Assembly: GCF_002135335.1 (NCBI RefSeq) | Contig: NZ_NEGC01000005.1 | Span: 124,001-188,000 of the forward strand | DNA length: 64,000 nt | Source: Acinetobacter sp. ANC 4470 | Lineage (GTDB): Bacteria; Pseudomonadota; Gammaproteobacteria; Pseudomonadales; Moraxellaceae | Direction: 5' to 3' | Shown: in pieces, positions 6,151 to 46,778 of the stretch | How positions within the stretch are numbered: the stretch's first letter is position 1 | Layout of the letters: every line of letters begins with the position of its first letter | Translations under genes and position numbers: made by a program | Notes under the pieces: generated by a model | The model's input: the letters and a program-made list of their open reading frames with translations, nothing else | Told to the model about the DNA's origin: nothing | Database searches by the model: none

Positions 6151-6310
6151 GAAGCGCTCCGTGGCTTAGACTCATTCTGATTTAAATGAAGTCATGGCGA
6201 ATTATTATTCTTTTGATTGTATAGAAAGCAGCTGGTATGTAAACGTCTAACGCTGCTTAAGCAAATTTATCTTTTAAAGCTGTTCCACTGAGATTTAATC
6301 ACATGACCAA

Positions 6311-6412
6311 GCGACATGAATGTCGCTATGGCACTGTGTGACATCCTTGTCACACAGTGCCATAAAAGATTTTTGTTACTTTTGATCTCTCAAAAGTAAG
6401 TAATTATCTACG
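6311..6412 (+). repeat. Three-hairpin intergenic repeat, copy A
   Basis: Three hairpins in a row: GCGACAT/ATGTCGC (6311-6326), a perfect 17-bp stem with loop TCCT (6327-6364), and TTACTTTTGA/TCAAAAGTAA (6376-6399), followed by a CTACG tail. It has the same order and similar apical sequences as copies at 40096-40203 and 42363-42466, but most stem bases differ while pairing is kept. In this copy the middle loop is TCCT, the reverse complement of the AGGA loop in the other two, as if the middle palindrome were inverted. Confidence 0.75.
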
Positions 6413-6469
6413 AATTACCATTTTAAAATCTCAAAGCAAAATGTGATCGTGACATTTTCTGGTAACATT

Positions 6470-39994: not shown

Positions 39995-40095
39995 AAATAA
40001 TTTATTCATTAAACTTCTTTTAATAAATTGTTTTAATCAATACAAATAGTTCGTAAATTCCAAAAAATGAACTTTAGGAAATATTGGATTCATGA

Positions 40096-40203
40096 GTGTG
40101 GCATGGATGCCACACGTTTCCCATCACGACAAGGATGTCGTGTATGGGGAACAAAAGGTTTTTGGCTACTTTTGACCTTTCAAAAGTAGAGATAATGCCT
40201 ACG
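40096..40203 (+). repeat. Three-hairpin intergenic repeat, copy B
   Basis: Hairpin 1 GTGTGGCAT-GG-ATGCCACAC (40096-40115). Hairpin 2 (40116-40152): nine-pair lower stem, one bulged T (40143), seven-pair upper stem CACGACA/TGTCGTG and loop AGGA. Hairpin 3 CTACTTTTGA/TCAAAAGTAG (40166-40189), then tail CCTACG. Same architecture as copy C, with nearly all stem bases changed. Confidence 0.78.
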
Positions 40204-40299
40204 CAAAGGCATAAAAATTGAATCAATCAAATGAGGCAGTGTTGGTTTTAAAGAATCGAATATTGAAAATTTTTTGATTTATGTAAGTTGTCTATTATT

Positions 40300-40329
40300 G
40301 ACCAAGTCCAAATTAATTTGGACTTGGTC
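40300..40329. terminator. 30-base perfect palindrome, likely bidirectional terminator
   Basis: GACCAAGTCCAAATT is followed immediately by its exact reverse complement. It lies between convergent genes, 24 bases after the DUF2804 stop, with T-rich flanks. Confidence 0.65.
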
Positions 40330-40352
40330 TTATTATTTATGCTACAGCGTTA

Positions 40353-41345
40353 TTACCATTTGGCGTAATGTTGCTCTAACAAACCATACTCATTTAACAA
40401 AACAATTTCTTGCTCATCTTGCTGAATCGTACCGCTAATTTTAGCTTGCCATTGGCTAAATTGACTTCCCACTAATCTTAAATTAAGATTTTCATAGCGT
40501 CGCCATCCAGTCTTTATATCCAAATTCAATTTTTCATCGAGTGAGCGAATGGTCCAGTGCCCCTCTTCTTGATGTTGAAATAAAACATCGCTTAATGGAT
40601 ACAAAACCCCATTCACCCACAAACAGTTTTCATTACCAAAACTTTCATTCACCCCAGAAGCTAAATTCAAACCAATACGGTTATTTTGTGAATCCCAGAA
40701 ATTACACGACAACCAAAACCAAGCCGTTTCTGGGCGCAGAAAACCACAAGTGTCATCCAAAGAAGCAAAAGTTTTTTCATTAAACTGTATCGCTTCCCCC
40801 TGCTTATTCATAAAAAAGCCTTCGCAAGCTAAAGTTGTGAGCTTTTGCGTATAAGTCCAGCCATTAATTCCTGTTGGACTACACATACTCAGTGCATCTG
40901 TCCCTGCACAGAAAATTCGCGCAGTGAGTTTAATTTCACCGTATTTAGTCACCTGAATATAGCGCACCCCATTGGCATGCTGAATATCAATTTGAAAAGG
41001 TGACTTAGAAAAAGAACTTTGATTATAAAGTGGCTGTTCATCAACGACTGTATGACGAGATAAAAAGTTGATTGCATTCCATTCTAAAACTTCATCGGTC
41101 ATATGGTTATAGATATACACAAAGCCATGCCCTGCCCAAGCAATATCAGCAATGGCTAAACCAATGGTGTAGTGTTCATGTTGAATAGAACAAAATTTGA
41201 ATTTTTTATATTTTAGCCGCTTACGCCAACCTGTGAGCACTTCGCCATAAGGCGTTTTATATTGATATTTATTTAAATCGATAATTGTTGGAAGAGCACT
41301 GAAACGTCCATAATTCGGTTGTCCATTTGATTGAATCAAATCCAT
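40353..41345 (-). CDS. DUF2804 domain protein
   Basis: 330 residues without signal peptide. The whole length resembles DUF2804: WRKRLKYKKFKFCSIQH near the start, IADIAWAGHGFVYIY, GWTYTQKLTTLACEG, and WFWLSCNFWDSQNNRIGLNL, with a lipocalin-like, beta-rich pattern. Members are often found beside lipid genes, but the function is not known. Flanked by intergenic repeats. Confidence 0.75.
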   Translation of the reverse strand: MDLIQSNGQPNYGRFSALPTIIDLNKYQYKTPYGEVLTGWRKRLKYKKFKFCSIQHEHYTIGLAIADIAWAGHGFVYIYNHMTDEVLEWNAINFLSRHTVVDEQPLYNQSSFSKSPFQIDIQHANGVRYIQVTKYGEIKLTARIFCAGTDALSMCSPTGINGWTYTQKLTTLACEGFFMNKQGEAIQFNEKTFASLDDTCGFLRPETAWFWLSCNFWDSQNNRIGLNLASGVNESFGNENCLWVNGVLYPLSDVLFQHQEEGHWTIRSLDEKLNLDIKTGWRRYENLNLRLVGSQFSQWQAKISGTIQQDEQEIVLLNEYGLLEQHYAKW

Positions 41346-41521
41346 TTATCAAATTCCATCTAGCTAAGAGATCATAAATTCCATAATCTTATTATGCCTA
41401 TAAAAATAGATGAAAACAGTGTAATTAATCGTTATTCATCCAAAATTTACAAAAACTCCATCTCATTCTTTTAAGTTGGTTTACACATAAATAACATTTA
41501 TTAATCATAAAGATATGCACA

Positions 41522-42037
41522 CTAATCATTGAGCATTAAATATGTGTTTTCCCACTGATTCCCTGAAAACTCACCCTCGATTAATTGTACATAACGACCA
41601 TGTACCTGATCAATGGTAATACAATCATCTACATCTAATATACGGTCTGTATGTTGTTTTTGCCAATGCTGTGCAAAGTGGGCTTTGCCCTGTTGTTTGG
41701 CCACCATTGTATTTTGTGCAACCACTAAAACATAGCGATGCAATTCACCAAACTCACGTGCATCGTAACCACCTAAGTTAATCAAATAGAGTTTTTGATC
41801 GGCTTGCTTCGGCGCAGCATCAGTAAATTGAATTTGATAATTTTTGCCTTCAAATGTCACACCATAAATCTGTGCCCAAGCATCGATATGTAAACCTTTT
41901 TGTTCGCCAAACCATGCATTTTTCAGTTGTGGATACACGCCTTCAAGCGAATCACCAACGGCTAAAACCACATCATGCACTTCTGTATTAGCACGGGCAT
42001 GACGACCGCCGAGCATGACGATAAATAGGCTGGGCAT
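41522..42037 (-). CDS. DUF1543 domain protein
   Basis: 171 residues from the ATG at 42037 (MPSLFIVMLGGRHARANTEV), with AGGGA upstream; an upstream TTG is less likely. The MLGGRHxxAxxEVHD start is diagnostic of DUF1543, and LYLINLGGYDAREFGELHRYV shows the second half of the repeat. Function unknown. Confidence 0.8.
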   Translation of the reverse strand: MPSLFIVMLGGRHARANTEVHDVVLAVGDSLEGVYPQLKNAWFGEQKGLHIDAWAQIYGVTFEGKNYQIQFTDAAPKQADQKLYLINLGGYDAREFGELHRYVLVVAQNTMVAKQQGKAHFAQHWQKQHTDRILDVDDCITIDQVHGRYVQLIEGEFSGNQWENTYLMLND

Positions 42038-42222
42038 TAGATTCCCTCTATTCAATAATTTCTCTTACATCGCAAAATAATTAATCATTTACGAGACAGA
42101 AAACATACTTTTCCAACAAAAACATTAATCTAAATGATACACGCCAAACCCATCAGCAACTGTTCGAGTCAGACTAAAATTAAATAAATCATGTTTTTGC
42201 GAAGTATAAATCACATGATGAT

Positions 42223-42320
42223 ATTCGACGAGTTTTGCTGATGAATCGTATTTTGGTTACTTTTTTAAAAGTAACATTACGAACTCCTACAATCAGATGA
42301 ATAAACGGTAAGACTCCGTC
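42223..42320 (+). repeat. Decayed intergenic repeat, family 2, copy 2
   Basis: Starts ATTCGACGAGTTTTG, contains a TTTTGGTTACTTTT hairpin like hairpin 3 of the other family, and ends GGTAAGACTCCGTC. It sits directly upstream of a family-1 copy (42363-42466). Confidence 0.6.
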
Positions 42321-42362
42321 ATGATAAAAATAATGATAGATTAAAAGTATGGGAGACGCGGA

Positions 42363-42466
42363 GGCGACATGGATGTCGCCGTTTTACTGTGCTGCAAGGA
42401 TGCAGCATCAGTAAAACAAATGGTTTTGCTTACTTTTGCCAAAACAAAAGTAAGCTATTTCCTACG
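42363..42466 (+). repeat. Three-hairpin intergenic repeat, copy C
   Basis: Hairpin 1 GGCGACAT-GG-ATGTCGCC (42363-42380). Hairpin 2 (42381-42417): GTTTTACTG/CAGTAAAAC lower stem, bulged T (42408), TGCTGCA/TGCAGCA upper stem, AGGA loop. Hairpin 3 GCTTACTTTTG/CAAAAGTAAGC (42428-42455), then CCTACG. Confidence 0.78.
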
Positions 42467-42557
42467 CAAACCAATCACAATTCATCACTTAAAATGAGGA
42501 AGTGCATTTATCAATTTTCCCTCTTTTAAATGACCTAAGCCATTTTCATTAAAGTAA

Positions 42558-44518: not shown

Positions 44519-44686
44519 ACAGTCTTGGCTCTGGTTTTAGCTCTATTTAAGCCCAATTTATAAGCTGTATATAAATCTTGGGCGAATCATTGTAATGCAA
44601 TTTTAAAAGCTTGAGTAAAGTTCATCCCGAATATTATTTACATACATTGTGTAATTCACATACAAACTTTATACTTCGCGCAAAAT

Positions 44687-44876
44687 GCAACAAGTCTAAG
44701 CATTCGCTTTAGGGAAGTTGGTAAAAATCCAACACTGCCCCCGCAACGGTAAAAATGAAAAGCATATCAATGTAATCTTTTTAAGATTGACACCACTGCA
44801 CTAAAAGTGTGGGAAGGTGGATATGCAAATATCAACGATTTGATATTACATTTAAGTCCGGAAACCTGCTTGTTGC
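44687..44876 (+). promoter_or_regulatory. Cobalamin riboswitch
   Basis: GCAACAAG (44687-44694) pairs with CTTGTTGC (44869-44876) as P1. The core shows GGGAAGTTGGTAAAAATCC, the conserved CTGCCCCCGCAACGGTAA segment and, before the P1 3' arm, the B12 box AAGTCCGGAAACCTGC. It lies directly upstream of a TonB receptor with a BtuB-like sequence; when adenosylcobalamin binds, such leaders block expression. Confidence 0.93.
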
Positions 44877-44890
44877 TCCTTTAACTCAAT

Positions 44891-44924: not shown

Positions 44925-46778
44925 ATGTCTACTCTTTTTCAACCTACTGCGCTTGTAGGCGCTATTGCTATTGCAATGGGTTTCTCCGTATCTGCACAAG
45001 CAAATACAAATTCCTCTGTTAATACATCTTTAGAAACTTTGGTGGTTACTGCCTCTCGTTCTGAAGAAAAAATTGAAAATATTCCAGCACGAATTAATAT
45101 TATTGAGCCTAAAATTCTGGAGCAATCTCCAATTGCATCTTTACCACAACTGCTACAAACAGATGCCTCTATTAATATGGTGCAAAGCGGTGGTTATGGA
45201 CAAATAGCATCCATCTTCTTACGTGGTACGAACTCTAACCACACCTTACTTTTAAGAGATGGTGTTCGTCTCAATTCAAATACCTCTGGTACTGCATCTT
45301 TGCCTTTTATTGATACCACTGATATTAAACAGATTGAGGTACTAAAGGGCCCTGCTTCTGTTTTATATGGTACAGATGCAATTGGTGGTGTAGTACAACT
45401 TATTTCAAAAACACCTGAAAAAACATCTGCATTTGTTACAGGTGAAATTGGTGAAAATAACACTTATAAATCTGTTATTGGTGCTGATTTAGCCGAAAAT
45501 GGTTTCTATGCCCAAATTCGTGGTCAACGTTTAGAAACTGATGGTACCGCTGTAACTGATGCAAAAAATAATAAAAAAGCGAGCTTTGATCAAAAAGGCT
45601 ATAGTGCAAAAGTAGGTGTTGAAAAAGAAAGCTTCGCAGCATCTGTTGATTACAGTGAAAATGAAGGCTATAGCGATTACGATAACTATGGCAACTTAGT
45701 TTCTCAAGATTTCAACAATGAGATAATCAACTTAAAAGGTCGTTTAAATATTTTAGACAACATTGCAGTACATGCTCGTCTTTCTCAATATAAAGATAAT
45801 ATCGACCAAAACAAATCATCAGATTATGTTCACAGCACCACTCAAGAAGCAGAGCTTTATACAAAATGGAAATTTACACCTACACAAAATATTTTAGTAG
45901 GTTCAACATTCAAAGATATCAAAGGTGATGTTTATTCTAAGAATCTTTGGGGCGGACAAGATGTTAAATACAATGATTCTGTAGATACGATTGGCTATTT
46001 TGCTCAGCATCAATATCAAAACAACGGCTTAGAAACACAAGTTGGTGTTCGCGTTGAAGATAATGAGAAGTTTGGTACGCATACTGTAGGTCAAGGGGCT
46101 ATTCGCTATCAGATTTTACCGCTTACTAGTATATATGCCAATGTAGGTTCAGCATTCCGTGCACCAACCACCAATGATCTATATGCAATATCTTGGGGTG
46201 CAAACCCTGATCTAAAACCAGAAGAAAGCTTCTCTTATGAAGTTGGTGTGGATCAAAAATTAAACTACAATATCAATTTAGGCTTATCTGTTTATCATAA
46301 TCAAGTGGATAACCTGATTAGTTCTAAAGCAGGAAAACTAGAAAATATCAAGAAAGCCACTTTTACAGGCGGTGAAGCATCATTCAAATGGCAGCAAGAT
46401 GAGCTGTTTTTAAGTACCACTTATGCTTATGTTCAAGCCAAAGATGATGAAACCAAGAAAGATTTAACTCGTCGCCCACGTCAAAGCCTAACACTTACAA
46501 CGGGTTGGGATGATGGTGAGTATGGTGTATCAGCTTCTGTTATCGCAAAATCGAATTCAAAAGATTTTGCAGATTACCCATCTACAACACCAACCACCAA
46601 TCCTGGCTATGTCACCACAAATGTAAATATGTACTGGCAACCAACTCCAATGATCAAATTATTCACAAATATTGAGAACATTGGCGATGTAAATTATAAA
46701 ACAGCTTACAACGGCAACGGTGTTTACTATGTCAACGGCGGTCGCCTTGCTTCTGCTGGGGTAACTTTCCGTTATTAA
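44925..46778 (+). CDS. btuB: TonB-dependent vitamin B12 receptor
   Basis: 617 residues. Signal peptide (cleavage after AQA at about residue 26), then a TonB box-like LETLVVTASR, plug domain (ISLPQLLQTDASINMV-like region, VLKGPASVLYGTDAIGGVVQLIS) and a 22-strand barrel ending GRLASAGVTFRY with a C-terminal aromatic residue. The cobalamin riboswitch upstream makes B12 or a corrinoid the likely ligand. A hairpin terminator follows before the adenosyltransferase gene. Confidence 0.92.
   Translation: MSTLFQPTALVGAIAIAMGFSVSAQANTNSSVNTSLETLVVTASRSEEKIENIPARINIIEPKILEQSPIASLPQLLQTDASINMVQSGGYGQIASIFLRGTNSNHTLLLRDGVRLNSNTSGTASLPFIDTTDIKQIEVLKGPASVLYGTDAIGGVVQLISKTPEKTSAFVTGEIGENNTYKSVIGADLAENGFYAQIRGQRLETDGTAVTDAKNNKKASFDQKGYSAKVGVEKESFAASVDYSENEGYSDYDNYGNLVSQDFNNEIINLKGRLNILDNIAVHARLSQYKDNIDQNKSSDYVHSTTQEAELYTKWKFTPTQNILVGSTFKDIKGDVYSKNLWGGQDVKYNDSVDTIGYFAQHQYQNNGLETQVGVRVEDNEKFGTHTVGQGAIRYQILPLTSIYANVGSAFRAPTTNDLYAISWGANPDLKPEESFSYEVGVDQKLNYNINLGLSVYHNQVDNLISSKAGKLENIKKATFTGGEASFKWQQDELFLSTTYAYVQAKDDETKKDLTRRPRQSLTLTTGWDDGEYGVSASVIAKSNSKDFADYPSTTPTTNPGYVTTNVNMYWQPTPMIKLFTNIENIGDVNYKTAYNGNGVYYVNGGRLASAGVTFRY

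Follow-up and report, generated by a model that had tools for sequence, protein, structure and literature searches.

Csr/Rsm RNAs such as RsmW, RsmX/Y/Z and CsrB/C are encoded by single genes or exist in a few copies. We know of no established sponge RNA of the CsrB/RsmX type in Acinetobacter, and by title and opening abstract none was found in the listed part of the matching literature. In A. baumannii, csrA has been described as an essential gene on rich media (PMC12802169). The motif CANGGANG is a published Rsm-binding motif (5'CANGGANG3' is so named in PMC6849547, where the SELEX consensus RUACARGGAUGU is also quoted). RsmW binds RsmA with a reported Kd of 11.5 nM and seems to originate from a 3' UTR (PMC4950607). 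Its Rfam family, RF02809, shares clan CL00106 with TwoAYGGAY (RF01731), which has been listed as a probable RNA that is unlikely to be cis-regulatory (Weinberg et al. 2010), and which Gardner and Eldai proposed to be a CsrA-binding RNA (PMC4333381). Four Group 3 sRNAs of 128-147 nt are described in A. baumannii AB5075 as having a short hairpin with a conserved loop (Region 1) and an extended hairpin (Region 2) (PMC5320573).

Here we describe a dispersed repeat family of Acinetobacter that combines hairpins of this kind with a covarying pseudoknot. Titles and opening abstracts in the open-licence literature, covered in part where matches were many, held no description of it. Our best reading, which we judge to be evenly poised, is that it is a dispersed RNA element that would bind a CsrA dimer when transcribed.

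A dispersed repeat family in Acinetobacter

The window, by which we mean the whole stretch analysed, is 64,000 nt of Acinetobacter sp. ANC 4470 (contig NZ_NEGC01000005.1, positions 124,001-188,000; GCF_002135335.1). Three copies of the family, A, B and C, lie in it, with the following features (positions are those of the window):

6310-6413: copy A, whole element, the third family member in the window
6310..6327, + strand: copy A, H1 hairpin, loop CATGAATG, GGA degraded
6327..6364, + strand: copy A, H2 hairpin, perfect stem without bulge, loop ATCCTT (GGA on the other strand)
6376..6399, + strand: copy A, H3 hairpin, loop pairs with upstream AAAGAT
40009..40296, + strand: MITE carrying copy B, left end TTAAACTTCTTTTAATAAATTG, right end TTTATGTAAGTTGTCTATT, without transposase
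40096..40115, + strand: copy B, H1 hairpin, CsrA-type loop region CATGGATG
40116..40152, + strand: copy B, H2 long hairpin, nine-pair lower stem, bulged T and seven-pair upper stem, CsrA-type loop CAAGGATG
40153..40165, + strand: copy B, strand a, AAAAGGT (pairs with the H3 loop in the covarying pseudoknot helix), and TTTTGG linker
40166..40189, + strand: copy B, H3 hairpin CTACTTTTG/CAAAAGTAG, loop ACCTTT pairs with strand a
40197..40241, + strand: copy B, 3' module, GCCTACGC, about 28 nt, then GAGGCAGTG; possible short helix H4 (complementarity by reading)
40300..40329, + strand: terminator-like hairpin before TTATTATTT
42161..42324, + strand: related second repeat ('type II') just 5' of copy C, TGTTCGAGTCAG ... 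GGTTACTTTTTTAAAAGTAAC ... GACTCCGTCATGA
42363..42380, + strand: copy C, H1 hairpin, loop region CATGGATG
42381..42417, + strand: copy C, H2 hairpin, bulged T, loop region CAAGGATG
42428..42455, + strand: copy C, H3 hairpin GCTTACTTTTG/CAAAAGTAAGC
42459..42505, + strand: copy C, 3' module, TTCCTACGC ... GAGGAAGTGC, TTCC/GGAA replacing GCC/GGC (by reading)

A first-pass annotation of this DNA had proposed a common plan for copies B and C, and every part of that plan was borne out: a GG-capped hairpin, a nine-pair lower stem, a bulged T on the 3' side, a seven-pair upper stem, an AGGA loop, the TACTTTTG/CAAAAGTA hairpin and then CCTACG. It overstated their divergence in saying that B and C differ at most stem positions; by reading they differ at 8 of the 16 H2 stem positions, and their H3 cores are identical. 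All three copies are intergenic, as it had claimed, with no overlap of any listed open reading frame of at least 60 aa. The palindrome TACTTTTG-N-CAAAAGTA occurs three times in the window against 0.00 expected (none in 100 shuffles). By reading, without a covariation statistic, complementarity like that of H4 lies at a similar distance in many copies.

A looser, H3-only pattern found 12 places in the whole ANC 4470 genome against a background of 3 for the reversed control, and by inspection the H1-H2-H3 plan is present in 9 of the 12. From eight of these nine places we built a covariance model, R1; the row for copy A was omitted from R1 and included in the alignment described below. R1 gives 30 matches at E<0.01 in the ANC 4470 genome, and matches in 104 of 119 Acinetobacter genomes, with 1-32 per matching genome (E<=0.001, at most the best 32 candidates being scored per genome). 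We count the other 15 genomes, in which R1 found no match, against the CsrA reading. Outside the genus, matches are weak and confined to 9 of 273 other Gammaproteobacteria (stricter filters, best 14 candidates scored per genome).

A sample of 151 copies was taken from 100 genus regions and the 30 ANC 4470 loci, the regions being drawn from the R1 matches listed, so that the sample is biased to high scores; 8 of the 151 overlap an open reading frame of at least 80 aa. Because a separate pattern scan of contigs named the GGA loops in its pattern, its matches are uninformative on loop conservation. Among the matches listed in that scan, 22 of 117 passed a stem filter, and some of these are visibly chance.

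Covariation and the folded strand

Alignment A6 has 110 rows, representing 109 distinct copies, and excludes matches above E 1e-12. Of the 130 loci, 38 are left out. Eighteen of these, for the most part near-duplicates, come from the 100 genus loci; the other 20 come from the 30 ANC 4470 loci and include changed-core copies and some near-identical B copies. Within A6, which was fitted to R1, so that the counts for H1-H3 lean towards the structure, and in which related copies are not independent, 98.0% of stem cells pair, and double changes are found in 31 of the 37 pairs, those of the pseudoknot helix described next included, a number reached by none of 500 shuffles. Covariation statistics, which the first-pass annotation had put forward as the check on selection for a folded form, gave a score of 0.550 for A6 against 0.164 when shuffled, and the score falls to 0.05-0.12 when the structure is slid along the alignment.

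A further helix, between the H3 loop and the upstream A-rich strand, forms a pseudoknot. This helix was absent from R1, yet double changes are seen in five of its six pairs, with AAAGGT/ACCTTT, AAAGAT/ATCTTT and AAAGAC/GTCTTT among the variants. Pairing is often lost at its two outer A-T pairs (13 and 29 cells), and we therefore read the pseudoknot as one of probably about four pairs.

Cells with G-U outnumber those with A-C in H2 by 48 to 2, or by 35 to 2 over the 86 distinct H2 sequences. Read on the complementary strand the ratio would be inverted, so it is the element strand that folds. Together with the double changes, these counts strongly support the proposal of selection on a folded single strand, and we regard it as close to certain that selection acts on one strand with a strand-specific fold. 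The asymmetry also speaks against a cruciform in double-stranded DNA. RNA and single-stranded DNA are not fully told apart by it, and we consider RNA likely to be the acting form. The bulged T of H2 is kept in 106 of the 109 copies.

Hairpin loops and the Csr/Rsm motif

The loop of H1 reads ANGGAT in 101 of the 109 copies. That of H2 reads A-N-GGA-N, with A in 103, G in 107, G in 106 and A in 108 of the 109, while both N positions vary; all 15 H2 stem pairs vary while the GGA of the loop is near invariant. The motif CANGGANG is found in H1 of 100 and in H2 of 86 of the 109 distinct copies, and in both hairpins of 80, which gives these 80 the two or more such hairpin loops per RNA expected of a Csr/Rsm sponge. 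The distance from GGA to GGA is 27-29 nt in 106 of the 118 distinct copies (of 139) with both GGA found. In seven orthologous groups with at least three aligned members, 48 of the 53 aligned copies keep both GGA loops. The ANC 4470 genome has a csrA gene. Binding of CsrA appears to us the best explanation of this loop profile, with the case for it and the case against it about equal in weight.

Copy A counts against the CsrA reading. Its loops read ATGAAT in H1 and ATCCTT, the reverse complement of AAGGAT, in H2, so that both GGA loops are lost from its element strand. A further point against that reading lies upstream of the element, where the GacA site TGTAAG-N6-CTTACA was found in 0 of 139 copies at up to one mismatch, in 4 of 139 against 1 shuffled at up to two, and in 25 against 17 at up to three; RsmW is likewise reported to lack activation by GacA (PMC4950607). 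Sigma70-like sites lie upstream of 26 of 139 copies, compared with 12 of 139 on the control strand, an excess too weak to build on.

The fold, the loop conservation, the pseudoknot covariation, the copy numbers, the MITE ends and the absence of B from sites in relatives are observed; transcription, CsrA binding and titration we infer. The element strand folds into the adjacent hairpins H1 and H2, whose loops display A-N-GGA about 28 nt apart, and beyond them lies H3, whose loop pairs with the upstream strand. In a transcript containing the element, one CsrA dimer would hold both loops, one in each of its halves. The copies might act together as a pool of CsrA decoys, or locally as handles for CsrA on the 3' ends of RNAs. 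That the summed copies titrate CsrA, dozens of twin-hairpin elements setting the free pool of an essential protein, we consider doubtful. We are equally hesitant about the idea that in Acinetobacter a distributed sponge, partly still being spread by a MITE, has taken the place of a single Csr sponge gene.

If CsrA does bind the element, this would supply the missing sponge partner in a genus in which csrA is reported to be essential (in A. baumannii, on rich media), would link multicopy intergenic repeats to TwoAYGGAY, a named family whose function is open, and would be a case of MITEs spreading regulatory sites. Were the sponge in fact distributed, CsrA activity would be tuned by the number of copies and by how strongly host genes are expressed, and a mobile element would have become part of a global regulatory circuit.

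Relation to TwoAYGGAY and RsmW

The first-pass annotation knew of no named family with this structure. This stands to the extent that the cut-offs of the two nearest named families, TwoAYGGAY and RsmW, are not reached, and needs amending in that H1-H2 weakly match the core of the former and relatives of the element in other Gammaproteobacteria weakly match the latter. Scanned permissively, one of seven loci (L006) matched TwoAYGGAY, at 25.7 bits and E 4.1 against a cut-off of 43, over positions 49-107 of 168, where H1-H2 fall on the core. We treat this match as a possible lead and not as membership. At E<=1, neither RF01731 nor RF02809 matched in the ANC 4470 genome, and RF02809 found no match in three Acinetobacter genomes.

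The element does have two adjacent hairpins with AYGGAY-like loops. Like TwoAYGGAY it sets a short hairpin before a long one, with AYGGAY/ANGGAN loops, and TwoAYGGAY too can be multicopy, one gammaproteobacterium in the R1 set (G359) having 18 matches over the cut-off. In contrast to TwoAYGGAY, the Acinetobacter element has the H3 pseudoknot and the CCTACG module in addition. Some relatives of the element from other Gammaproteobacteria gave RsmW matches of at best 33.4 bits against a cut-off of 52, and these are only suggestive because the same search was also positive, below the cut-off, in the control genome of Haloferax volcanii. Relatives from these other Gammaproteobacteria often have, by minimum free energy, a larger fold in which an outer stem surrounds the two GGA hairpins. 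With RsmW, RsmX/Y/Z and CsrB/C the element shares GGA in hairpin loops; it differs from them in having only two GGA hairpins per copy and in its number of matches per genome.

Position relative to genes

Both neighbours were called, by a simple open reading frame rule, for 148 copies. Of these, 55 lie in convergent gaps, 89 in co-directional gaps (40 sense, 49 antisense) and 4 in divergent gaps; with orthologous groups collapsed these numbers become 31, 46 (20 sense, 26 antisense) and 3. For comparison, the same loci hold 87 background gaps of 150 nt or more, of which 7 are convergent, 46 co-directional and 34 divergent. Promoter gaps are thus avoided by the element, and it has no strand preference relative to genes, the latter being a further point against the CsrA reading. 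Both loops are canonical in 33 of 38 sense and 40 of 49 antisense copies. This similar loop integrity and the missing strand bias are the main difficulty for a simple role in 3' UTRs.

In 18 groups of up to 16 members, one of them an antisense group of 8, the copies share homologous sequence on either side; many copies are therefore old. Compensatory changes occur inside orthologous groups. Inverted neighbour pairs with recurring gaps are frequent. On contigs of at least 3 Mb, first halves hold 17 minus and 9 plus copies and second halves 7 minus and 11 plus; as a replichore orientation bias, on the assumption that records start near the origin, we rejected this after collapsing orthologues (p 0.26).

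Mobility and alternative explanations

REP/BIME elements are multicopy, intergenic and palindromic, and often stand in inverted pairs. All of this holds for the element described here. It differs from REP/BIME elements served by TnpA-REP (RAYT) in its two different GGA-capped hairpins and its covarying pseudoknot. It differs too in its genome: a search for the Y1/REP transposase (PF01797) that was positive in 5 of 14 control genomes gave no match in ANC 4470. For want of this transposase we set aside a REP/RAYT system, and the suggestion that the repeat is the REP-like target of its own transposase lacks support, copy B sitting instead in an IS5-type MITE.

In the ANC 4470 genome the five B-like copies share a longer element of about 290 bp. 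Ends similar to those of the B element (2 and 4 mismatches of 21) bound an insertion sequence in an A. nosocomialis plasmid record, two frames of which match HTH_Tnp_4 and DDE_Tnp_4 and which, from general knowledge of these domains, we take to belong to the IS5 family. With terminal inverted repeats, no transposase of its own and a related autonomous insertion sequence, the B element has the marks of a MITE. MITEAba12, with ISAba12 as its proposed parent, is 113 bp long and has 16-bp imperfect terminal repeats and 9-bp duplications (PMC6382973); the longer B element resembles IS5-family MITEs in being small and non-autonomous with IS-like terminal inverted repeats. Across this repeat family, in contrast to MITEs, both terminal repeats (at most 6 mismatches) are present in only 24 of 151 copies, one in 12 and none in 115. 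Some copies have been spread by an IS5-type MITE, and most copies examined are without such ends.

In the comparison of occupied and empty sites that the earlier annotation had thought worthwhile, the genes flanking B are present without the element in the seven relatives looked at (G018, G013, G012, G002, G007, G009 and G011); no target duplication was made out in the AT-rich sequence. In G013 and G018 a terminator-like hairpin closely follows the stop codon of the upstream gene, so that B probably entered between stop codon and terminator.

These observations bear on two further accounts. The first is selfish DNA of a REP/BIME-like kind, the hairpins being recognised as single-stranded DNA by a mobilising enzyme, with the loops, the bulged T and CCTACG as recognition features. 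It would fit the many intergenic copies, some of them on plasmids, the inverted pairs with recurring spacing, the lack of strand bias relative to genes, the scarcity of copies in divergent gaps (4 of 148, where the background has 34 of 87) and the conserved bulged T. The missing PF01797 transposase, the IS5-type ends of the B group and the lack of a significant replichore bias do not fit it, and compensatory changes at loci whose flanks are homologous in as many as 16 genomes look like long-term selection in place. We think this account unlikely, if deserving of some weight.

The second is that the hairpins stop or protect the RNA ends of neighbouring genes, as terminator, exonuclease barrier or RNase site, with the GGA loops serving another factor or none. 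Convergent gaps are indeed enriched (55 of 148 copies against 7 of 87 background gaps), divergent ones are nearly empty, and B lies between a stop codon and the terminator-like hairpin of the upstream gene. By reading, however, no T-run directly follows H3 in B or C, and in a simple scan of copies with a same-strand upstream gene terminator-like sites follow the element in 3 of 81 and precede it in 6 of 81. About half of the co-directional copies are antisense, and the conservation of A-N-GGA is left unexplained, so that we give this account little credence.

An independently transcribed sRNA family with base-pairing targets, such as the Group 3 sRNAs, whose described hairpins and sizes resemble H1-H2-H3 (PMC5320573; a likeness by description only), seems to us improbable, and we take the likeness as a lead only. 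Four stretches of strain X4-300 (L365-L368) at the AB5075 Group 3 coordinates gave element matches in two, a figure that would count only if the two genomes are collinear; no tmRNA anchor was found in the loci examined. The C4-like Group 1 sRNAs of A. baumannii were set aside, their loops being described as CACAUU or CUACAUU, unlike the GGA loops.

A plasmid origin of the element was likewise rejected, as only 20 of 72,556 plasmid records match the B element, each over at most 46% of the query. Three of these 20 records are 3.7-4.1 Mb in size and chromosome-like.

Variants of the element and neighbouring repeats

In copy A of the dispersed repeat, the second hairpin (H2, 6327-6364) has a perfect stem and its loop, ATCCTT, is inverted, as if the tip had been flipped, for instance by template switching. 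Several MITE copies (L178-L187) have a changed core, with an insertion close to the H2 tip (CCTTGCGCTGCGTTTTAAAGCAGTG...) and a different hairpin, GGACTCAAAATATATTTTGAGGTCC, 5' of the H3 loop.

A second repeat family, which we term type II, adjoins copy C:

42161-42324, type II repeat, immediately upstream of copy C

Its layout is TGTTCGAG-CAG, an H3-like hairpin and then GACTCCGTC, and loci L002, L005 and L188 likewise carry it. In several inverted pairs (L220, L221 and L222), H1-H2 is joined to the H3 and tail of type II.

The twin-hairpin family TwoAYGGAY (RF01731) can itself be a dispersed repeat, since one gammaproteobacterial genome (G359; L353 and other loci) holds 18 matches above the Rfam cut-off. 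A full-length match (82.2 bits) lies in Lachnospiraceae bacterium A2 (L088:4944-5102).

Other features of the region

The relative G013 (L315) carries a tandem duplication of the region homologous to ∼39.8-40.4 kb of the window, and the MITE is absent from both units. Further along the window lie:

44675-44887, cobalamin riboswitch, upstream of the ORF below
44925-46778, ORF whose sequence reads like a TonB-dependent receptor
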